Positions 671 to 35,629 of a stretch of DNA of 36,951 bases are shown piece by piece. Origin of the DNA: a virus; IMG/VR virus record IMGVR_UViG_3300035698_013157, positions 1-36,951 of that record; one strand, given 5' to 3'. Numbering within the stretch: position 1 is the first letter of the stretch; every line of letters starts with the position of its first letter. A program made the position numbers and the translations under genes. The notes beneath the pieces are model-generated. The model ran no database searches, was not told the origin of the DNA, and saw nothing but the letters and a program-made list of their open reading frames with translations.

Positions 671-1552
671 TTAAACTCTAAATGAATTTCCTTTGAATTG
701 AATTATATTAAACATATCGAATACCCTATCGTAAATTCTATCTCCGTATTTATCAGACAATTGAAGAATACCTATTCCTAAGTCTTTATTGGTTTTATCT
801 TTAAAATTCATTGATATATAAGTTCGTAATTTATTATTGTATCGCTCTTCTAAAATATCTTTAATTAGATTGGTTTTGCCGTAATTACTTGCTTCTCGCT
901 CTGTTAAAACATCATCAAAATATCTTATTCCTGACCTAGTTATTTTATTAAATTCTTCTTTGTCTAATGGGTTTTGAAGCCCCTCATACATTTCTACTAA
1001 TTTATTTGTAGTAAAGCCTTTAAAAGCTAGATTACTACCTATAAAACACTTTTCAAAAGCCCTCATTATCGATGTTTTTCCGTTTCCATAGCCGCCAATT
1101 ATTAAAATTCCTTTTTTTAGACTTGGCTCTGACAATAGGGAAACATTTGAGCATTTAGCGAAATTTTCATAATCTCCTAAGAAGTAATAAATCAATGGTT
1201 TTATATTTTCTAAGGTGTCTCTGTGGGAGTGATTGAACTGTTTTCCTTCGTTCTCTAAATAGGCTTTTTTGAACATTCTCCAAAGCATATCCTTAGTAAG
1301 CACAATTGGTTCTTTTTTAACAAATTCACCTCTGACGCGATTCATGTAGGCTTTGTTTGCCTCTATAAACTCTGGATTGTTTTCTGGCATACTTTTTTCG
1401 TAAGAAGCTACTTGTTTGATTGCTTCTCCGATTGAAATTGAAAATTGATTATTAAAAATTTCAATACTTTCCTCTGTTAGATTTTCTAAATCAAAAGATT
1501 TCAATGCTTCGTATTTTCTTTTTCCAATTTTATCTTCGTTGTTATTTTTCAT
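671..1552 (-). CDS. DnaC/IstB-like AAA+ ATPase, probable helicase loader
   Basis: 293 residues. A Walker A loop GGYGNGKTS lies at residues 153-161 and a Walker B-type YFDDV at 211-215. A C-terminal block (DKYGDRIYDRVFDMFNI, then FKGNSFR) contains the arginines expected in sensor regions of DnaC-type AAA+ proteins. Family knowledge: such ATPases deliver replicative helicase to phage origins. It lies directly downstream of the initiator-like gene and overlaps it by 11 bases, a pair reminiscent of lambda O/P. No helicase or polymerase gene is seen in the window, so the phage probably recruits the host replisome. The ATPase fold is firm; the loader role is inferred from fold and neighbour. Confidence 0.85.
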   Translation of the reverse strand: MKNNNEDKIGKRKYEALKSFDLENLTEESIEIFNNQFSISIGEAIKQVASYEKSMPENNPEFIEANKAYMNRVRGEFVKKEPIVLTKDMLWRMFKKAYLENEGKQFNHSHRDTLENIKPLIYYFLGDYENFAKCSNVSLLSEPSLKKGILIIGGYGNGKTSIMRAFEKCFIGSNLAFKGFTTNKLVEMYEGLQNPLDKEEFNKITRSGIRYFDDVLTEREASNYGKTNLIKDILEERYNNKLRTYISMNFKDKTNKDLGIGILQLSDKYGDRIYDRVFDMFNIIQFKGNSFRV

Positions 1553-2258
1553 ACCAAGGTATTAAGGGTCTGTTATGATCATATACTTTAGGAACTTCTT
1601 TGTTGTAGTTGTTTTGATTTGTGATCCATTCGCTACTAAATCCACTCCAACTTTTTTCTACAGCCATTTTTATTGAATCGTTTGGATTTAAAGTTGATTT
1701 TATAATCTCTGTTTTTATTTTTTCAAAAGCGATTTTAGAATTAACAGCTTTTTTCTGTTTACGAACTTCTAACCATCCTTCTGCGATTTCCACATTTACC
1801 CCTAAATCGATTAAAGAATTTTTAAATGAAAATTTATTAACCGAAGGTTTATTTATTTTATTATTTATTACATTATCATTATCATTATCATTTACATTAT
1901 CATTTACATTATCATTATCATTATCAGTTGGATTTGTTGATATTTGTTGAACACTTTCAACACTTGTTGATTTTGTTGGATTTTGTTGCTCTTTGTTTAA
2001 CACTCTTAGTCTTGCTGACTCCTTTCCAGCGTCGCTGCGCTTACCTTTAACTTCCTTAAACTTTACTAAATCCCTTTTAAGTTGACTTTGAATAAACTTC
2101 CACGCTGACAACACAACCCTATCTTCTAAGACTGGATTCATGTTATTAACGTACTCCAATAGGTGATTGAAAAGCATTCCCTTTTCTTCGTTAGTTAGGT
2201 GATCTATGTTATGAATAAGATCAGCATAAAGAACAAACGATTTTTTATTTTCTGCCAT
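1542..2258 (-). CDS. DUF6291-like phage replication initiator/organiser
   Basis: 238 residues. The N-terminus (FVLYADLIHNIDHLTNEEKG, then LFNHLLEYVN and AWKFIQSQLKRDL, residues about 8-65) matches the DUF6291-type domain often found beside DnaC-like ATPases in Bacteroidetes phages. A low-complexity linker of alternating Asn/Asp/Val follows (about residues 112-135). The C-terminal part (LGVNVEIAEGWLEVRKQKKA, ending PLIPWYEK) resembles the tail of phage replisome organisers. The linker is encoded by a CATTAT/CATTTA tandem array that could double as origin iterons, as in lambda gene O. The gene is preceded by a 176-base leader with a predicted structured RNA. DNA binding is inferred, not shown. 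Confidence 0.72.
   Translation of the reverse strand: MAENKKSFVLYADLIHNIDHLTNEEKGMLFNHLLEYVNNMNPVLEDRVVLSAWKFIQSQLKRDLVKFKEVKGKRSDAGKESARLRVLNKEQQNPTKSTSVESVQQISTNPTDNDNDNVNDNVNDNDNDNVINNKINKPSVNKFSFKNSLIDLGVNVEIAEGWLEVRKQKKAVNSKIAFEKIKTEIIKSTLNPNDSIKMAVEKSWSGFSSEWITNQNNYNKEVPKVYDHNRPLIPWYEK
1871..1925. repeat. ATTATC/CATTTA tandem hexamer array inside the initiator gene
   Basis: About nine near-perfect 6-base units (CATTAT with interspersed CATTTA) run in tandem on the plus strand. They keep the minus-strand frame and encode an Asn/Asp-rich linker. Because the length is a multiple of three, unit gain or loss would not break the protein. The position in the middle of a replication initiator-type gene is the position of the lambda origin iterons within gene O. 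An origin role is inference. Confidence 0.6.
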
Positions 2259-2286
2259 AATTATTAGATTTTATACAAATAAAAAA

Positions 2287-2362
2287 CCGCTAAAAAACCC
2301 TAGCCCTCTCACTGGCATTAGGTAATTTAGCGGCATGAAGAAAAATTTTTTCATAGTGAGAG
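2287..2362 (-). ncRNA. Candidate structured leader RNA with a pseudoknot and terminator-like stem
   Basis: On the minus strand, upstream of the initiator gene, an 8-bp stem (CCGCTAAA at 2333-2326 with TTTAGCGG at 2294-2287) encloses an inner stem (CCTA, bulge AT, GCC / GGC, TAGG). The 8-base apical loop AGTGAGAG (2313-2306) is the perfect complement of CTCTCACT at 2362-2355, which would form an 8-bp pseudoknot. Between the two pseudoknot strands lies a further hairpin (ATGAA..TTCAT, 2354-2335). A run of Ts follows the outer stem (2286-2281), so it may also act as an attenuator. I match it to no known RNA family. Confidence 0.55.
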
Positions 2363-2434
2363 CATTTTATATCCCAAATATATAACTTTATTTATATTTT
2401 AACTACACTAAGTATAAATTATTAAATAAATAAT

Positions 2435-3971: not shown

Positions 3972-4253
3972 TTATCCGTTTAAGTATTTTTTTAAATCTT
4001 CTTGTGCAACGTAATACGTTTTTCCAATTTTAAATGCCTTTAACTTGGCTCCTGGTGTTTCATTAATGTAGTTTCTAATATGAATTCTAATTGTATTCAC
4101 ATCTTTTTTTACTTTTAAAGCAACTTCTTTGGCTGAATAAGTTTTTACAGAATCTTCTGTTGATGTTAAATTTAACTCCGCAGTTCTTTTTGCAATTACA
4201 TTAATGAAATCATCATCGATTTCTATAACATCACTAGCTTTTAGTTTTTTCAT
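3972..4253 (-). CDS. HTH_17/excisionase-type DNA-binding protein
   Basis: 93 residues. The C-terminal half (YSAKEVALKVKKDVNTIRIH, then INETPGAKLKAFKIGKTYYV and EDLKKYLNG, residues 39-93) is the MerR/excisionase-type winged HTH: an 'AKEvA..l.v...TIr.hI' recognition helix followed by the 'fkiGktyyv...dl.ky' wing. It starts 2 bases after the MBL-fold gene ends. In an early operon of an integrating phage such a protein may act as Xis or as an early regulator. The integrase is about 6.5 kb away on the other strand, so excision would need both operons expressed. Fold confident, role inferred. Confidence 0.75.
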   Translation of the reverse strand: MKKLKASDVIEIDDDFINVIAKRTAELNLTSTEDSVKTYSAKEVALKVKKDVNTIRIHIRNYINETPGAKLKAFKIGKTYYVAQEDLKKYLNG

Positions 4254-4255
4254 TT

Positions 4256-4999
4256 TTAAAATGGTGTTTTATTTAAATCTAATTTAATTCCAGAATTTGC
4301 TATGTAGGTTTCTTTTACAAATTCCTCTTCTATTTTTGTTTTAAAATACAATTCGTTTGAATTACGATCACTTAAATGCAGCAACATAATTGTTCTTGTA
4401 TTTGATAAATCATTAGCCCTAAGCATGTCTTGACAATTCTGAAAACTAAAGTGGCTAGATAAAATTCTGTCTCTTAAAAATTTATCTTCGACTCCACTAG
4501 CTCTTTTTTGCTCTAAAATTTCATTACAGTAATTCGCCTCTATTAGCCAATGACTTACGTTCGCAAACTTAAATGGGCTATAGACTGTATCTGTTATAAA
4601 CACTATTACCCCGCTTTCTAAATGGTTTATGACAAAACCAAACGGCTCTTTAGTGTCGTGGACTGTTTTAAAACCCAATACAGTATATGGCCCAATTTTT
4701 TGTTTTTTCATTGGATCTAAAATAAATGACCTGTGATGGTTAATTATTTTAGTTTCTTCCAACGTGCCTTTTGATGCGTATATTTTTATCCCAGAAGCCG
4801 CCAAGTGATTAATTGACTTACAGTGATCGTTATGTCCGTGAGTAACTACGCAACCGGAAACATTATTCAAATCAAAATCAATAGCTTTTTTAATTTTTTT
4901 GATATCAATACCGCACTCAATCAGGAGCATTAATCCTTTAGAATCTTTAAGTAAGTAGCAATTTCCTGAGCTTCCTGAGCCTAATACTTCTAAGGTCAT
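4256..4999 (-). CDS. Metallo-beta-lactamase-fold hydrolase (YycJ/WalJ-like)
   Basis: 247 residues. It starts with a typical MBL first strand and loop (LEVLGSGSSGNCYLL) and has the metal-binding motif THGHNDH (His54, His56, Asp58, His59). Later ligands are likely in FVINHLESG, FITDTVYSP and SHFSFQN. YycJ-like members are putative DNA exonucleases. Phages often pair an MBL-fold gene with RecT, and here it follows RecT with a TAATG overlap. No YqaJ- or lambda-Exo-type nuclease is visible in the window, so this enzyme is the best candidate for the 5'-3' resection partner of RecT. That role is inference. Confidence 0.82.
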   Translation of the reverse strand: MTLEVLGSGSSGNCYLLKDSKGLMLLIECGIDIKKIKKAIDFDLNNVSGCVVTHGHNDHCKSINHLAASGIKIYASKGTLEETKIINHHRSFILDPMKKQKIGPYTVLGFKTVHDTKEPFGFVINHLESGVIVFITDTVYSPFKFANVSHWLIEANYCNEILEQKRASGVEDKFLRDRILSSHFSFQNCQDMLRANDLSNTRTIMLLHLSDRNSNELYFKTKIEEEFVKETYIANSGIKLDLNKTPF

Positions 5000-6027
5000 T
5001 AAAATCCTGGTTCCGTGATTTCTCCTGTGGTGGTATTAACTGAACTTATTTTTTTTGTTTCAACCTCTTCCGCTAATCCCATATCAATTATTTCATCATT
5101 AGCATTATCGTCAACATCTTTATTTACCCTATTTGATACGCTTTCTATATCATTTTGAAGCAATCTCTGTAGGTTGTCGTCAATTTTTTCTGGATCTATA
5201 TTAATTGAACCCCAACAAGCTCTTTTTACCGTTTTCCAAGCCATTTCATCATACCACCCATCAATATTTTCTTTTCCAACTCTTTTACCATTTTCCCACT
5301 TATCTTTTTCTCCACCCCAAAATTCAGCAGATGCGTATGTAGGTTTTCTTTTTTCAATGTCTTTTTTACTTAATAAAACAAGTTTATTTTTCTCTGGATT
5401 GTTTTTGTAGATGTGATAATAAAAACCACCCTTTACTTCCCCTCTATCAAATTCATCTGTAATGTTAAATTTATATGTTTCTACAGGGTTATCTTTATCC
5501 TTTTTCACCGCCTTAAAATCATCAGTTGTATAAACTAGCTCTATGATAGCTGTATCGGGCGCGTCAAGTCCGTATTTTTTAGCCTTTATCTCAATACCAT
5601 CATACCCTGGAATGAAAGTAATATCAAACTTATTGGTCTTGCTGTTTTTGTATGGAATTGGGTTTATGTGATTTGGCTGTAGTGGGTCTAACCCTATTTC
5701 AGAATAAGCAACAACATCTTGCGCTAATTTATTCATATTTACATTTTGCCACTTAAACTCTAAAGCGTCTCTATATTGCTCTGTTTTAGCCAAGCGCTTA
5801 ACTTCACCATCTTTAAGAACACCGTCTAATTTTATAAAGTAGTTGTTTATTAGTTTTTTTTGAAGTGTTGTTAATTGTAATTTTTTAGATCCTCCGTTTG
5901 GAAACTCAAGCATTACTTTTGCCGTAAATCTGTCGGCAGGGGAGTCTTTTACTGTTTCTATTTCCGATTTTTTTGCAATAGCTATTGCAGTTGTTTTTTT
6001 TGTTCCTTCTGTTTGTTTTGTTTCCAT
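4999..6027 (-). CDS. recT: RecT-family single-strand annealing protein
   Basis: 342 residues. The central RecT block is clear: VVAYSEIGLDPLQPNHINPI, then PYKNSKTNKFDITFIPGYDG and IEIKAKKYGL, and later FWGGEKDKWENG and DEMAWKTVKRAC. The family anneals complementary ssDNA and promotes strand exchange during phage replication and repair. The tail (DDNANDEIIDMGLAEEVETK) is acidic and may contact other proteins such as the DUF3127 SSB-like protein. It is preceded by a roughly 200-base leader with inverted repeats (6028-6224) and followed by the translationally coupled MBL-fold gene. Confidence 0.93.
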   Translation of the reverse strand: METKQTEGTKKTTAIAIAKKSEIETVKDSPADRFTAKVMLEFPNGGSKKLQLTTLQKKLINNYFIKLDGVLKDGEVKRLAKTEQYRDALEFKWQNVNMNKLAQDVVAYSEIGLDPLQPNHINPIPYKNSKTNKFDITFIPGYDGIEIKAKKYGLDAPDTAIIELVYTTDDFKAVKKDKDNPVETYKFNITDEFDRGEVKGGFYYHIYKNNPEKNKLVLLSKKDIEKRKPTYASAEFWGGEKDKWENGKRVGKENIDGWYDEMAWKTVKRACWGSINIDPEKIDDNLQRLLQNDIESVSNRVNKDVDDNANDEIIDMGLAEEVETKKISSVNTTTGEITEPGF

Positions 6028-9497: not shown

Positions 9498-9764
9498 ATG
9501 GAAAATTATAAAAAAGCATCAGAAGTGGGTCAAGATTTAATTTTCATCTATTTAAAAAACAGAATGGAAGAAAATAAAATTACTATAAACAAACTCGCTG
9601 AAATTTTAGAAGTAAGCGTTACAAAACTCGGGCAAGTTTTTAAAAAAGAAAGCCCAATGACTTTAGGCATGTACTTAGAAATTTGTGGAGCGCTACAATT
9701 GCGCCCATATTTAATACCTACTGAAAGTGATAATACCGATATGCAAAGAATGTTCTTTAATTAA
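9498..9764 (+). CDS. HTH transcriptional regulator (XRE-like)
   Basis: 88 residues from the ATG at 9498, chosen over an upstream in-frame TTG at 9468. The core NKITINKLAEILEVSVTKLG followed by QVFKKESPMTLGMYLEICGA (about residues 26-65) is an XRE-type HTH: 'l..la..l.vs...l...f......l..l..i...l'. First gene of the rightward lysogeny/integration operon, immediately after two phased repeat arrays that it could bind. It may be a Cro-like partner of the repressor at 8419, or an autoregulator. Confidence 0.72.
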   Translation: MENYKKASEVGQDLIFIYLKNRMEENKITINKLAEILEVSVTKLGQVFKKESPMTLGMYLEICGALQLRPYLIPTESDNTDMQRMFFN

Positions 9765-9910
9765 AGTAACGGTGGCGATTAGCGAAGTAAAAGCCTACCG
9801 CTACCGTTCAAGTTTGCCACAAATGCTACTGGCTTTTATTTTGCCAATTGCGCGTTAGCGGTTCGAGCTTCTCCGCTTTTAGAAGCACAAAACTAATAAA
9901 TAATATAAAA
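9765..9910 (+). other. GC-richer spacer with nested hairpins
   Basis: Contains a 10-bp stem AACGGTGGCG/CGCTACCGTT (one G-U pair, starting near 9768), GCCA/TGGC and AGCGG/CCGCT stems, and GCTTCT/AGAAGC (near 9867-9886). Base composition is visibly richer in GC than its surroundings. It looks like foreign DNA flanking a cargo gene; I cannot assign it to a known element and it does not fit the integron attC core rule GTTRRRY. Confidence 0.4.
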
Positions 9911-10751: not shown

Positions 10752-12035
10752 ATGGCAACGGTAAAAATATTCACAAGAGGGAATTCTGATTCCTCGGCAC
10801 TATATATTCGGTTTATTAATGGCCGTAAATTAGATATTCAGATAAAAACTAATCTCGTTGTAAACTCAGAGCATTGGGATAATTCTAAAAGCAATTACAG
10901 AAATGTATTTGCGGTAAGTAATAGAGCTACGTTGAACGCTAGGTTCAATAAGTTAATGGCAGTAGTTTTAGAGAGTTATAACGAGTCTTATATGCTAGGA
11001 GAGGTTATTGACAAAATATGGCTTGAGAACGTATTGAAAGAGTTTTTTGAAAGACCTAAGCAAGAAGATCAAGCGTCCGTACAAAAACACTACGTTTATT
11101 ATGTGGATTTTATTGATTGGTGGCTTGAAAATATTTCTGCTACCTGGCGAACCGATAAAAATAAGTTTTTGAACAAGAGATCTAAAGCTCAATATCAATC
11201 TTTTGTAGAAATGTTTAAAAAGTATGAGAATAAATCTAAGCAAAAAATAAAAATAAAAGAAATTGATAGCTTTTTAATCAATGATTTTATAGATGTAATT
11301 ATAGATAAAATGAACTACGCTCCTGCAACTGCTAGGAGGCATGTTACTAGGTTGAAATTTTTTTTAAACAGGGCTGAGAACATGGATATTAAAGTAAATC
11401 AAAATTACAAAGAGCGTGTATTTGTAGGTAATGAGGAAGAGGATATTTTGGCGCCATATTTAAACGAGGAAGAAATAGACCGCATATTTAATTTAGACCT
11501 TTCGAGCGATGATGTTTTAGAAAATATAAGGGATAGTTTTATAATTTCTCTTTGGTCGGGCTTGCGAATATCCGATTTTAATAAAAACCTAAATACAGAA
11601 AATATAGATGAAGATTTCATCAATATTAAGACCACTAAAACACAAGCCTGGGTTAATATTCCTTTACATTCGCAAGTAAAGCAGGTGTTAAAGAAAAGAT
11701 TTGGATATTTGCCGATCAAATATTCAGATAAGCATTTTAATGATCGTATAAAGACCGTTTGTATGCTTGCTAATATAGATGAAGAAATTAGAGGCAAAAA
11801 GTTTGATAGTGATGTTAAGCGAAAAGTTATTGGAACCTACAAAAAATACGATTTAATCTCAAGTCATACAGGCAGGAGAAGTTTTGCTACTAACTTATTC
11901 GGTGTTGTGCCTAATAGTGTTATAATGTCGGTTGCCGGATGGAGTAGTGAAAAGGTATTTTTAAGCTACATAAAGCGTACAAAAAAAGAAAGTGCGTTGA
12001 TATTAAAAAATGTTTGGGACGAAAAATATAAATAG
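10752..12035 (+). CDS. int: Tyrosine recombinase, phage integrase
   Basis: 427 residues. N-terminal Arm-type DNA-binding domain (MATVKIFTRGNSDSSALYIR.., about 1-95), a SAM-like core-binding domain (about 110-215) and a C-terminal catalytic domain. Catalytic residues are visible: Arg272 in SGLRISD, a Lys near KTTKTQAW, His372-x-x-Arg375 in SHTGRRSF, Trp397 in the AGW position and Tyr406 in LSYIK. Normal length for Bacteroidetes phage integrases. Its likely target is the tRNA-derived site at 9211, with flanking 11-bp arrays as arm sites. It is followed 27 bases later by another HTH gene in the same transcript. Confidence 0.96.
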   Translation: MATVKIFTRGNSDSSALYIRFINGRKLDIQIKTNLVVNSEHWDNSKSNYRNVFAVSNRATLNARFNKLMAVVLESYNESYMLGEVIDKIWLENVLKEFFERPKQEDQASVQKHYVYYVDFIDWWLENISATWRTDKNKFLNKRSKAQYQSFVEMFKKYENKSKQKIKIKEIDSFLINDFIDVIIDKMNYAPATARRHVTRLKFFLNRAENMDIKVNQNYKERVFVGNEEEDILAPYLNEEEIDRIFNLDLSSDDVLENIRDSFIISLWSGLRISDFNKNLNTENIDEDFINIKTTKTQAWVNIPLHSQVKQVLKKRFGYLPIKYSDKHFNDRIKTVCMLANIDEEIRGKKFDSDVKRKVIGTYKKYDLISSHTGRRSFATNLFGVVPNSVIMSVAGWSSEKVFLSYIKRTKKESALILKNVWDEKYK

Positions 12036-13958: not shown

Positions 13959-14105
13959 TTAATTCAAATTATTGTTGTAAAATACGCCTCCAAAATTGCT
14001 TTTTTGTTGATCTTGCGCTGCTGCTTTTATCTTGTCTTTTTCGTCTCCTCGCATTAATTTAGAATAATGCAGAATTTTTGATACTGTATCTTTACTAGTT
14101 TTCAT
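13959..14105 (-). CDS. Small phage protein (48 aa), unknown
   Basis: MKTSKDTVSKILHYSKLMRG, a mostly helical, charged sequence with a Gln/Ala-rich middle. Sits between two operon genes in the same direction, 18 bases after the stop of the upstream one. Not recognised. Confidence 0.55.
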   Translation of the reverse strand: MKTSKDTVSKILHYSKLMRGDEKDKIKAAAQDQQKSNFGGVFYNNNLN

Positions 14106-14123
14106 TTTTTAGTTTTCAGTTTT

Positions 14124-14351
14124 TTAAATATTTAAAGTTTTGTTTTTTACTGCGTTTAATCCAAAGAAAAAACATTCCATTTGCTTAAAAGTCATAAAAT
14201 TGCTTTTAACGTTTAATGATCCTGGTTCTGCACATTCATAAAGCGCAAAACGTTTGCCCGTTATTTGATCTGTTCCAATAAAATAATTTTGTTTTGGATC
14301 CGAAACCCTTAGCATTCTTGTAAGAGATTCCCTTTTTTCCGTTTGTGTCAT
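14124..14351 (-). CDS. Unknown small protein (75 aa)
   Basis: Not recognised. Shares the C-terminal 'NFMTFKQMECFFFGLNAV' pattern with the 69-residue protein at 13054. N-terminus MTQTEKRESLTRMLRVSDPK, then a likely beta hairpin (YFIGTDQITGKRFALYECAE). Confidence 0.55.
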   Translation of the reverse strand: MTQTEKRESLTRMLRVSDPKQNYFIGTDQITGKRFALYECAEPGSLNVKSNFMTFKQMECFFFGLNAVKNKTLNI

Positions 14352-26381: not shown

Positions 26382-27584
26382 ATGAATAATTTATCAGATT
26401 TATACCCGAGTGGTGGCGGTGGAGGATTAGAAGGAACTTCCTATGTTTTTGTACAAGCAAATGGTACAGACGTTGAAAACGCAATAGAATTACAAGCAGC
26501 TTATGATTTAGCAATTACAAAAGTTGTAACAACGCAAGCTCTTTCTGCACCTTATAATTTCCCTTACGTAATAAGTCCAACTACACTTGATCTTTCTGAT
26601 TATAATGAAACTTTACCTGTTTTAATTGAAGGGCAATCCTACACTTTTAATGTTGAAGGTGTTGATATGATAGGAGAAGTTGTTAATGATCTGGGATTTT
26701 TTCAGTATAGGGTTGAATTTCCGACAGCGTTTACATATAATGAAGGCGATGTTCGTGTCTACGTTTCTGTAACTACAAAATCAATCGTAATCGCAGCACC
26801 TGGAAATTACAATTTTGAAAATGGAAATTTTATCATGGATACCGAATATGTTGATTTAGTTTCATTAGACAGCAATAGAAGCATTGTTTTTAATGGAGCA
26901 AACACCATACAAATTACAGCAAACAATGTTTTTGTAAAAGGTGTTGACGTTCAAGGCAAAGAATTTAAAATTGGAAATGATTTATCGAAACTTAACGCAG
27001 AAAGTTGTACGGGTGGTAATGATTCATTCGGAAAAGATTTAATTGTATCAGGAACATTTACTAGTTGTCAAGGTGGTAATAATTCATTTGGTGGTAATGG
27101 TACAGCATCAGGTACCTTTACTAATTGTCAAGGTGGTGATATTTCATTTGGTGGTAATGGTACAGCATCAGGTACCTTTACTAATTGTCAAGGTGGTGAT
27201 ATTTCATTTGGTGGTGGTGGTGGTGGTACAGCATCAGGAACATTTACTAATTGTCAAGGTGGTAATAGTTCATTTGGTTTTGGTACAGCATCAGGAACAT
27301 TTACTAATTGTCAAGGTGGTTATAATTCATTTGGTGGTGCTACAGCATCAGGAACATTCACTAATTGTCAAGGTGGTGATAGTTCATTTGGTGGTAATAA
27401 TACAGCATCAGGAATATTTACTAATTGTCAAGGTGGTGATAGTTCATTTGGTGGTGGTGATTTTGGTGCATTATCAGGTAAACTATACTATTGTCGTTTA
27501 ACATCAGGTACATTTGGAACAGTATCATCAGGAGGAAGAACAGTTATTTGTATAGACGGAAATAATAATCAAAATAATCAATAA
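26382..27584 (+). CDS. Second tail-fibre/spike protein with about eight FTNCQGG repeats
   Basis: 400 residues. The N-terminal part (MNNLSDLYPSGGGGGLEGTS, then FVQANGTDVENAIELQAAYD) resembles the attachment part of phage fibres. About residue 205-360 comes an array of roughly eight units of 19-22 residues (FTNCQGGDSSFGGN..TASGT), probably a beta-helix ladder with a Cys in each turn. It ends in a short tip (YYCRLTSGTFGTVSSGGR). The repeats are nearly identical at DNA level, including a GGT run at about 27208, so unit number may vary. A receptor- or matrix-binding spike is likely. Confidence 0.75.
   Translation: MNNLSDLYPSGGGGGLEGTSYVFVQANGTDVENAIELQAAYDLAITKVVTTQALSAPYNFPYVISPTTLDLSDYNETLPVLIEGQSYTFNVEGVDMIGEVVNDLGFFQYRVEFPTAFTYNEGDVRVYVSVTTKSIVIAAPGNYNFENGNFIMDTEYVDLVSLDSNRSIVFNGANTIQITANNVFVKGVDVQGKEFKIGNDLSKLNAESCTGGNDSFGKDLIVSGTFTSCQGGNNSFGGNGTASGTFTNCQGGDISFGGNGTASGTFTNCQGGDISFGGGGGGTASGTFTNCQGGNSSFGFGTASGTFTNCQGGYNSFGGATASGTFTNCQGGDSSFGGNNTASGIFTNCQGGDSSFGGGDFGALSGKLYYCRLTSGTFGTVSSGGRTVICIDGNNNQNNQ
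27007..27480 (+). repeat. Tandem 57-66-bp repeat array in the spike gene
   Basis: About eight units encoding FTNCQGG...TASGT. The unit period is near 60 bases but varies by multiples of 3, keeping the frame. A GGT microsatellite (five or more triplets, 27208-27227) lies in one unit. This array also creates a long unused frame on the same strand. Confidence 0.85.
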
Positions 27585-29923: not shown

Positions 29924-30535
29924 ATGAGGGGGATTAAGGATTTTATTGTTAGCATACCAAAAAAATACAGCGATACTTTTAAAACAGAAAGCGGAATTGA
30001 GCTTTATGCTGATCGAAGGTTTTCAATTAAAAAAGTAGCAAATACAATTGTTGAAGTAGTTGAAGTCCCATTTAATTATTCTGGAAATATTAAAAAGGGA
30101 AGTTTATTGTTTATTGATTCCACAGTTTTAATGCAACAAGACTATGCAATTGGGGGAGAGCAAGAAAACATAAACCTTTTAGATAAAAAGAATAACCTGT
30201 ACAAGGTTGAGCAATGCCTTATTATACTTTACCAAGTAAATAAAGACTGTAAATGGATGGCTTTTGGAGATTACTTTTTAGCTGAAAAAATACAAATTAA
30301 AAAAGAATTTTTAACATCTAGCTTAATTATAATGCTAGAGGATAGTAAACCTAGCTTTGAAAACAATAAATGCAAGGTATTTATACCAAACCAATACTTA
30401 ATAGAAAACAAAATAGAAAAAAACAATATTATTTTTACAAGCAAAAATAATGGTGTTGATGTAATATTTATGGATAAAGAGTATCTTTGGCTTAGGAATA
30501 GAGACGCAATAGCTAGTGAGCCTTTTTTTGTTTAA
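29924..30535 (+). CDS. Unknown late protein (203 aa), possible GroES-like barrel
   Basis: Not firmly recognised. Strand-rich throughout (IELYADRRFSIKKVANTIVE, KKGSLLFIDSTVLMQQDYAI). Its end (FTSKNNGVDVIFMDKEYLWL, then RNRDAIA) resembles the last strands of GroES proteins ('G.dv.f.g.eyl.vre.dIla'). If so, this would be the second co-chaperonin-like protein in the phage. It lies between lysis and terminase genes. A capsid-associated or tail role cannot be excluded. Confidence 0.45.
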   Translation: MRGIKDFIVSIPKKYSDTFKTESGIELYADRRFSIKKVANTIVEVVEVPFNYSGNIKKGSLLFIDSTVLMQQDYAIGGEQENINLLDKKNNLYKVEQCLIILYQVNKDCKWMAFGDYFLAEKIQIKKEFLTSSLIIMLEDSKPSFENNKCKVFIPNQYLIENKIEKNNIIFTSKNNGVDVIFMDKEYLWLRNRDAIASEPFFV

Positions 30536-33199: not shown

Positions 33200-35629
33200 A
33201 TGTACAACGCACTTAATTCTAAAGAAAATTTAACAGCTATTCCAGATCCACTAGCACCTGCAAAAGAAAAATTAACAATCAGCTACGGATTAACTTACGC
33301 TATGGCTATTCAAAAAGAATGGTTTAATGGTGGTAAAATTAATTCTAAAACAAGTTTTATGGAGCGCCATGAATATGTTCGTGAAATGCGAACTTATAAT
33401 AGAGGGGAGCAGTCTATTGACAAGTATAAGGACATGGCGGCTAGGGAAAAAGAGAGTTTAGAGTGGATGAACATGGATTGGACCCCTATTAATGTAGTTG
33501 AGAAATACACCAACATTGTTCGTAATGGGATAAGTGATGAGTTTTATAGAATGGATATTCGTTCTGCGGATAGGTTTGCGCTTTTAGAGCAGGGCAATAA
33601 AATATTGAACCATAAAATAAACATGGCATCGAAAGACATGCTAGAAAAAGCTAAAGTTTTACTAGGTGTAGATTTAACGCCAAGGGGTTTTGTTCCAGAA
33701 GACATAGAGGAAATGAATCTTTATAATGAAATTAAGGAGCGTCCAAAACAAGAAATTGCAGAAGAAATTATAATAAATTACGTAAAGAACGTTAGCAATT
33801 GGGGAGATTATATTAAAAAAGAAACAGACAAAGACCTTGTTTTGCTAGACATTCAAGTAGCTAGAGTATTCACAGACCCTAATAATGGAGTTCAAGTAGA
33901 ATACGTTGACCCAGAAAATTACGGTCATAGCTTTGTTGAGCGCAATGACTTTAGAGACGCTTTTTATCATTTTGTAGTTGACACTATTACTATAAACGAT
34001 TTAAGGAGAGAAAGCGGATATAGTGAGGAAATATGTAGAAAAATTGCAGCTCTTTACGGAGACGATAATAAAAGTAATGTTGCAAACTATGGTGAATGTG
34101 ATATAAATAAAATATTAAATTTTAGGGTAAATGTTATGCGATTTACTTTTAAATCTGATACAGAACAAGTTTGGAAAGCTTACAGAGATAAAAAAGGCTC
34201 TTTAAAAAAGGTTTCTAAAAGAGACAGCAAATACGATGTTCCAGAAGGAGCAGAAAAAAGCAAGCTGTCTAAAAGAATGGACACTTGGTACGAAGGAAGT
34301 TATGTTGTAGGTAGTAATGAGTATTTGTATAATTACAAGGAATCTGAAAACATTGCCGTAGATGATATGGATAGAGTGTTGCCTCCTTTTATTGCGCAAA
34401 GTACAAACATATATAAAAATAAATTACGGTCTTTTTTAAAGAATATTATTCCATTAGCAGACCAAATGCAGTACATACATTTAAAGCTACAGCATTTAAT
34501 AGCGGAATTAAAACCTGATTTAATAGAAATAGATTTAGATAATGTTGCCGAACTTATTGCTGACGCAAAAGGTGATCCAGTATCGAATATGAAAAAAATC
34601 ATAGGAATATTAGATGCTAAGGGTATTATTCTTAAAAAGCGCACCAATATGGGTGAAGATGGAATTAAAGAAGGACCAGGAGCAAGGCCTATACCAAATC
34701 AACAGGGTTCAGCATTGGCGGCACTTTTAAATTCTTGGCAGCATTATTACAACTTAATTAGAGAAACTACAGGAATTAATCCGGCAAGAGACGGCACTTT
34801 GTCGGAAAATGCTTTGGTTGGTATAAATCAGATGATGAAGTTAGCTAGTAATACTTCTACCAAACACATTGCTGATGCTGCGGTAGCTTTTGATAAAAGA
34901 GTATCTGGCGTAATAAGCTCTAGGGTTAAAGGAATATTTTCACAACGAAAAGAAGCAAACCACATTGTAAAAATGTACGAAACAGCAGTGGGTAAACACA
35001 ATTTAGAAGCTTTAAGTTCTCTTAAAGATAGGCATATTCACGAGTTTGGTTTTACTATAGAAATGGTTCCTGCCAAAGAAGAATTAGACGAATTAAAGCA
35101 AGACTTAATGATAGCGCTGCAAGAAGGAACAATTGATGTTTCTGAAAAATCTGAAATTATGAGAATTGCTCGAAACAACATTAAGCAAGCTACGGAGTAT
35201 ATGAGTTTTATTAGACGTAGAAGAATTAAAGAGAAGATGAAAGAAACTGAGTATAATCAGAAACTTCAATCTGAATCTAATGCTGCTGCGGCAAATGCAG
35301 CAGCTCAAGCAGAAATGCAGACCTATGAAATGAAAGCTCAAATTGATATGGAAATAGAAGGAAATAAATCTATGATGAGATTAAAAGAACTTCAAGCGCA
35401 ATTACAAATTAATTCCCCTACAGAGGATAAAAAATTTCAGCAAAATGTTTATATCGAGCAAATTAAAAACATGCAGACTTTAAACCTTAAAAAATACGAT
35501 AACGATAAAAAGTCAGAAAGAGAAGTGGCAAATAGTTCCAGACAAAGTAAAATGATTGAGCAGCGCCAAAAAGACCTTAATGCTTTTGATTTTAAAAACG
35601 AATTTAATATTGAAGATATTTTAAACTAA
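33200..35629 (+). CDS. Portal protein
   Basis: 809 residues, 3 bases after TerL. The N-terminal half includes WMNMDWTPINVVEKYTNIVR and, further on, NPARDGTLSENALVGINQMM and LASNTSTKHIADAAVAFDKR, portal-like blocks near the clip and wing. The C-terminal part is coiled and Ala/Gln-rich (SNAAAANAAAQAEMQTYEMK). The dodecameric portal is the channel for DNA and the site of terminase docking. Length is at the upper end of portals, as with the terminase, suggesting both belong to one large-type pair. No other portal in the window. Confidence 0.82.
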   Translation: MYNALNSKENLTAIPDPLAPAKEKLTISYGLTYAMAIQKEWFNGGKINSKTSFMERHEYVREMRTYNRGEQSIDKYKDMAAREKESLEWMNMDWTPINVVEKYTNIVRNGISDEFYRMDIRSADRFALLEQGNKILNHKINMASKDMLEKAKVLLGVDLTPRGFVPEDIEEMNLYNEIKERPKQEIAEEIIINYVKNVSNWGDYIKKETDKDLVLLDIQVARVFTDPNNGVQVEYVDPENYGHSFVERNDFRDAFYHFVVDTITINDLRRESGYSEEICRKIAALYGDDNKSNVANYGECDINKILNFRVNVMRFTFKSDTEQVWKAYRDKKGSLKKVSKRDSKYDVPEGAEKSKLSKRMDTWYEGSYVVGSNEYLYNYKESENIAVDDMDRVLPPFIAQSTNIYKNKLRSFLKNIIPLADQMQYIHLKLQHLIAELKPDLIEIDLDNVAELIADAKGDPVSNMKKIIGILDAKGIILKKRTNMGEDGIKEGPGARPIPNQQGSALAALLNSWQHYYNLIRETTGINPARDGTLSENALVGINQMMKLASNTSTKHIADAAVAFDKRVSGVISSRVKGIFSQRKEANHIVKMYETAVGKHNLEALSSLKDRHIHEFGFTIEMVPAKEELDELKQDLMIALQEGTIDVSEKSEIMRIARNNIKQATEYMSFIRRRRIKEKMKETEYNQKLQSESNAAAANAAAQAEMQTYEMKAQIDMEIEGNKSMMRLKELQAQLQINSPTEDKKFQQNVYIEQIKNMQTLNLKKYDNDKKSEREVANSSRQSKMIEQRQKDLNAFDFKNEFNIEDILN

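Follow-up and report, generated by a model that had tools for sequence, protein, structure and literature searches.

The DNA analyzed here, referred to as the window, comprises 36,951 nt of a viral record (IMGVR_UViG_3300035698_013157, positions 1 to 36,951) and probably represents part of the genome of a Pachyviridae-like phage. A large late-region protein (33200-35629), portal-like by reading, is 65% identical to proteins of phages phi46:3, phi13:2 and phi19:3. An ORF at 10752-12035 resembles a tyrosine recombinase from its translation, and the protein encoded at 26382-27584 carries repeated GTASGTFTNCQGGDxSFGG units and is probably a tail or surface protein. A protein of the metallo-beta-lactamase fold is encoded on the minus strand at 4256-4999, and its Pfam match to anti-Pycsar protein Apyc1 (6e-4) stays below the cut-off; in phi19:3, a metallo-beta-lactamase gene adjoins RecT in the same order.

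The element under study lies in the 5' leader of a minus-strand replication operon (Table 1). The sequence-only reading had placed it ahead of a replication initiator gene, and this is right: the protein encoded downstream matches Pfam PF19808 (DUF6291; 3e-19), PHROG 6451 (primosomal; 2e-29) and PHROG 678 (replication initiation, O-like; 9e-14). The promoter-like box stands 12 nt before strand X, and the U-run 22 nt before the initiator ATG at 2258.

Table 1. Coordinates of the leader element, its operon, counterparts in named phages and loci of a second leader class
Record	Feature	Position	Strand	Basis or remark
Window	Promoter-like element TATATTTG, Bacteroidetes -7 box TAnnTTTG	2375..2382	-	Sequence; putative promoter activity
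Window	Strand X, CTCTCACT	2355..2362	-	Near predicted RNA 5' end; exact complement of H2 loop
Window	A/T-rich linker with ATGAA..TTCAT hairpin	2335..2354	-	Hairpin folds in MFE, changed in relatives
Window	H2, terminator-like hairpin	2286..2334	-	Outer 8-9 bp, internal loop, CCUA/UAGG, GCC/GGC, 8-nt apical loop
Window	Strand X', AGTGAGAG, whole H2 apical loop	2306..2313	-	Sequence, fold, inverted repeat
Window	U-run TTTTTT directly 3' of H2	2281..2286	-	Intrinsic-terminator signature by sequence
Window	DUF6291/primosomal, O-like replication initiator, 238 aa, first gene after leader	1542..2258	-	Pfam and PHROG
Window	DnaC-like helicase loader, second operon gene	671..1552	-	PHROG 50, 1e-15
Flavobacterium phage 11b	Element, initiator operon	33621-33725		Descriptor
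lillamy9-4	Element, initiator operon	14098-14205		Descriptor
elemoC	Element, initiator operon	9596-9712		Descriptor
Polaribacter phage P12002S	Element, initiator operon	33794-33887		Descriptor
Olleya phage Harreka_1	Element, initiator operon	30070-30169		Descriptor
Cellulophaga phi19:3	Element, initiator operon	4018-4112		Descriptor
L038	Second leader class	2310-2430		
L039	Second leader class	4895-5000		
L146-L150 (L146, L147, L148, L149, L150), L153-L157, L159, L162	Second leader class			

All sequences quoted in the sequence-only reading are present at 2287-2362 when the minus strand is read. The leader RNA is predicted to fold with -24.0 kcal/mol (z -2.6). Both stems that had been described, the outer one of 8 bp (CCGCTAAA/TTTAGCGG) and the inner bulged one (CCTA/TAGG, then GCC/GGC), recur in the MFE and centroid structures and leave AGTGAGAG as apical loop. 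The claimed exact complementarity of this loop to the upstream strand is borne out, X and X' forming an inverted repeat with 8 of 8 positions matched. The T-run noted after the hairpin is likewise there; directly following the stable H2, it gives the sequence signature of an intrinsic terminator, at which transcription would presumably end. The second hairpin proposed in between is A/T-rich, weak and altered in the Cellulophaga relatives, and finds no support. Overall, the element looks like a bacteriophage leader RNA ahead of the gene that starts DNA replication, in which the 5' end pairs with the loop of a stop-signal hairpin in the same molecule.

The chance of such a loop match, which had been called low, was estimated on dinucleotide-shuffled window leaders. 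An exact complement of the loop arose in 0.16% of these; when matches of equal strength to any part of the inner hairpin were counted, the figure was 0.67%. The estimate agrees with the claim, but the window sequence by itself is suggestive only; the pairing is secure because homologous leaders share the complementarity between loop and 5' end.

Pairing and geometry in homologous leaders

Relatives of the initiator gene were drawn from viral contigs, and their leaders were picked by gene, promoter motif and terminator-like hairpin alone, blind to complementarity (n = 33, non-redundant). The T-run belonged to the selection criteria, and some relatives have weak T-runs (e.g. L009 and L043). Each leader's X region paired with its own loop at ≤ -8 kcal/mol in 33 of 33 cases and at ≤ -12 kcal/mol in 32 of 33, with a mean of -15.1 kcal/mol. 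When leaders and loops were swapped, 16% of the combinations reached -8 kcal/mol and 4.6% reached -12 kcal/mol, and none of 20,000 leader/loop permutations gave a mean below -6.6 kcal/mol. Roughly half of the initiator relatives lack a promoter and terminator detectable directly upstream with the descriptor; some of these carry the element by eye, and others use a different leader.

Read by eye, the leaders of relatives have the same order of parts written in different letters. Examples of X/X' are GCTTCTCAC/GTGAGAAGC, GGTCTGAC/GTCAGACC, CGTCCAC/GTGGACG and CCACCAC/GTGGTGG, and 45 curated elements contain 42 distinct X sequences. Blind consensus folding of 34 elements (RNAalifold on a MAFFT alignment) yielded no consensus; because the sequences are too divergent for blind alignment, the analysis relied instead on the descriptor, on swapping leaders and loops, and on aligning closely related groups.

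Within such close groups, the complementarity between the loop and the distant strand is kept by compensatory change, as in a kissing loop or loop-docked pseudoknot. One X:X' pair takes the forms A-U, C-G and G-C among seven closely related elements, and H2 carries G-C/A-U and A-U/U-A changes; sliding the partner by 1-3 columns removes all compensatory signal. Between the window and Cellulophaga phages phi19:3, phi13:2 and phi46:3, 100% of cells are paired and two double changes are found. One is the eighth X:X' pair, U-A versus A-U, the Cellulophaga phages keeping X as CTCTCACA with a compensating change in the loop; the other lies in the inner helix of H2. The near-identical RNAs of loci L009 and L062 differ by a G-C to C-G exchange within X:X' (GTGGAAG/CTTCCAC versus GTCGAAG/CTTCGAC). 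The sequence-only reading was to be given up if homologues lacked compensatory changes; they are present, and together with recurrence in dozens of phages they support its structured RNA with an upstream-paired apical loop. We regard the structure, i.e. the predicted X:X' pairing plus H2, as well supported by this comparison.

The geometry of the element is more constant than its letters. A TAnnTTTG motif lies 4-19 nt 5' of X in 42 of the 45 curated elements; RNA 5' ends in Cellulophaga phi19:3 and Flavobacterium phage 11b would fall a few nucleotides downstream of TACATTTG/TATATTTG. The end of H2 mostly falls 7-35 nt before the next start codon in the same 45 elements, also when another small gene stands ahead of the initiator. 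In 93% of elements, no more than 2 nt of X' fall within the H2 stem, and docking and terminator are therefore compatible, not alternatives. Beyond the promoter, the A-rich linker before H2 (a loose AAAnATTA-like pattern in 19 of 45) and the T-run, almost no columns are conserved in 34 aligned elements. Over the set, a short hairpin H1 that presents X in its loop is supported (combined p 2e-13; e.g. GTAG-AGTGGAAG-CTAC), and most relatives thus probably have a loop-loop (kissing) contact, as opposed to the contact between loop and single strand described at first for the window. There, H1 is not significant (p 0.93), so X is probably single-stranded and the contact would be one of loop to strand.

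Occurrence and relation to known RNAs

The descriptor was run on seven phage records, of which three are partial or a fragment, and each gave one convincing match for the initiator operon, located at its 5' end. Besides the window, six named phages carry the element at this same gene (Table 1). Further copies precede YopX, DUF6378, helicase-methylase and unassigned early genes; phi19:3 has a second element ahead of its YopX gene. The YopX loci examined contain only three clear copies. At locus L209, a copy precedes another probable type of initiator, and one clear copy was found by eye in the isolate Pedobacter sp. Leaf170. Two contigs each contain two kissing-loop leaders with different X (L006, 1256-1369 and 2365-2468; L032, 2997-3096 and 8549-8635), and specificity therefore belongs to the copy, not to the phage.

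In 1.0 Mb of phage DNA, a set enriched by selection and partly redundant, 65 matches reached a score of -20 versus 15 in controls. Two Bacteroidota chromosomes (800 kb) gave 2 matches at the phage cut-off, neither with the right spacing and geometry. A scan that asked for terminator and complementarity but for no promoter was noisy (93 matches versus 36 in reversed controls at -14 kcal/mol), and requiring the promoter improved it. An additional window match (9768-9895, minus strand) has the wrong geometry and is regarded as chance. Of 296 genomes in the order to which a Chryseobacterium MAG belongs, only 4 contain DUF6291, and chromosomal prophages added little. In phi46:3 (L084, 2640-3345), an HNH endonuclease gene comes first after the leader, followed by a short ORF matching the C-terminal part of the initiator; apparently the initiator gene was invaded by the endonuclease gene, with the leader left intact.

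That the element could be matched to no known family agrees with Rfam 15 (4227 families), which gave 0 matches in the window. A permissive search of the element region returned a best E of 0.54, far below the cut-offs; 20 loci yielded one tRNA and nothing else, and nine loci, most with elements, yielded no match up to E 0.5. A prior description was not found in the open-access library searched, the Weinberg 2017 motifs being covered through Rfam alone.

Several described systems share single traits with the element. In the ColE1 RNAI/RNAII kissing complex, which is bound by Rop and governs replication, a loop-loop helix of ~7 bp joins two RNAs from opposite strands. The helix length is similar and sequence drifts while complementarity is kept, but here there is one RNA from one strand, plus a terminator. 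The rep attenuators of pT181 and pIP501 also have a terminator ahead of a replication initiator gene, in its leader; they need a counter-transcribed RNA, whereas the pairing here is presumably intramolecular. Phi29 pRNA has two loops with complementary, phage-specific sequences, which pair intermolecularly for DNA packaging and not in a leader. In phage lambda, tR1/nutR gates genes O and P, and HK022 has put RNAs. As in lambda, a terminator lies between an early promoter and the genes for an O-like initiator and a helicase loader, and, as with put, an early RNA element lies near the promoter; by contrast, neither a nut/boxA nor a put-like sequence was identified in the present case, and the docked element is the terminator itself, directly before the start codon. 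The lambda terminator ahead of O and P would be the nearest biological situation.

Among described principles, the kissing loop of cobalamin riboswitches comes closest. Their L5-L13 (P14) interdomain contact pairs the aptamer with a hairpin of the expression platform, which in env8 hides the ribosome-binding site (PMC10907184). In both cases a 5' part of the leader, there a hairpin loop, pairs with the loop of a downstream hairpin, which sets expression in the riboswitch (PMC10907184) and would do so here. Unlike the riboswitch, the element has neither aptamer nor conserved core, measures ~95 nt in total and has a platform that looks like an intrinsic terminator; the cobalamin aptamer has no Rfam match in the window or the element region. 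The element would work partly like the cobalamin riboswitch and lambda systems and is a member of neither.

A second, unrelated class of leader RNA was observed in Bacteroidota phage contigs (Table 1). It consists of a TAnnTTTG promoter, P1, a hairpin P2 and a pseudoknot P3. The P2 loop is usually TTTAGCGG, TTCAATGAGG is invariant, P3 stretches almost as far as the start codon, and the layout also includes CCTGC. Covariation was seen in P2 and P3, with double changes in 9 of 11 pairs (28 cells; 0 of 500 shuffles). This class has no Rfam match, was not found in the window and, given its conserved core, could be a riboswitch or a protein site. It precedes DUF6291 initiators, NUMOD4 (HNH-associated) proteins and others, a place held elsewhere by the kissing-loop leader. 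Both classes stand before different genes in single contigs (IMGVR_UViG_3300005747_000515, with L162 and L211; L039). The kissing-loop leader of L209 and the second-class leader of L162 precede similar proteins (M[SA]KLGYTWYPKDW..), and the two classes therefore seem interchangeable.

Proposed function and alternatives

The comparison of leaders shows a predicted X:X' pairing and H2 in a constant leader position, conserved together with a free choice of letters. We propose, with a probability of about 0.58, that the element is a cis-acting transcription attenuator in the 5' leader of the replication operon, built on a loop-docked terminator, because a promoter, a terminator within 100 nt and then directly a start codon form the layout of an attenuator. 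Of the functions suggested earlier, an attenuator or autoregulatory leader is thus favored. Host RNA polymerase would start just downstream of TATATTTG, making X the 5'-most part of the RNA. On leaving the polymerase, X' would form 7-8 Watson-Crick pairs with X, and at the same time the H2 stem would close around X'. Most transcripts would then be stopped by docked H2 and the U-run ~20 nt before the initiator start codon, and polymerases reading through would yield initiator and helicase loader. Docking would speed or lock H2 and so lower expression of the replication operon until undone; at odds of about two to one, it would favor rather than hinder termination. The level of read-through may be set by a phage or host factor, or by the kinetics of docking.

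X and X' presumably pair within one molecule, and the comparison fits pairing between two molecules equally well. A stand-alone small RNA of ~95 nt, running from promoter to U-run and acting in trans (through loop-loop dimerization, or with replication or other RNAs as its target), would agree with a compact unit that has its own promoter and terminator and whose complementary loops are able to pair between molecules. The downstream gene would then be a mere neighbor, and the tight distance to the start codon before different genes would be needless; X also differs between copies in one phage (L006, L032). We consider this unlikely, and equally so a leader that affects translation or mRNA stability, in which the docked structure would shape the region before the start codon or guard the 5' end without terminating transcription. 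A start codon just ~20 nt downstream, the 5'-terminal location, weak U-runs in a few members and the nearby second leader class without terminator are in line with such a role, whereas the start codon lies outside H2 and the U-runs are strong in most members.

A leader-peptide attenuator, in which the ribosome on a translated short ORF governs H2, is very improbable. A 27-codon ORF (MKKFFFMPLNYLMPVRGLGFFSGFLFV) does run through the window element and a similar one occurs in the Cellulophaga phages, but ORFs are present in 11 of 45 elements versus 12.9 expected from shuffled leaders, i.e. without excess. In alignments by eye, moreover, every codon difference between the window and phi13:2 is an amino-acid replacement, and in phi19:3 the T-run within the ORF is one T shorter. 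The ligand-binding riboswitch that had also been suggested fits the leader position with a terminator and the pseudoknotted fold. A classical riboswitch is nevertheless hardly credible for want of conservation in the paired region: across 34 elements, neither the paired parts nor their surroundings hold a conserved residue, X varies almost from element to element, and the downstream genes are unrelated. An origin or protein-binding inverted repeats at the DNA level, for which the adjoining initiator gene might speak, can be dismissed with similar confidence, since both the G-U pairs and the orientation agree with the promoter strand and copies precede non-replication genes. H2 is more stable on the sense than on the antisense strand in 44 of 45 elements, a set chosen on the sense strand and partly biased by this; with the G-U pairs and the promoter orientation, this stability points to an RNA-level element.

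More broadly, and as a tentative idea that we hold to be rather doubtful, Bacteroidota phages may share a leader system for early and replication genes. In it, a terminator would be run by sequence-free, self-specific docking of the 5' end on its loop, with the shape read by a common phage or host factor, and the second, unrelated pseudoknot class would replace it elsewhere.

If the attenuator reading is true, phage DNA replication would be regulated by a widespread RNA that lacks annotation, in a phylum with little-known phage gene regulation, and the element would be an RNA switch timing the onset of phage replication genes. Its conservation runs almost wholly via base pairing, so that it escapes sequence searches and Rfam. 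A mechanistic question is thereby made testable, namely whether docking of the 5' end on the apical loop of a terminator sets the efficiency of termination.
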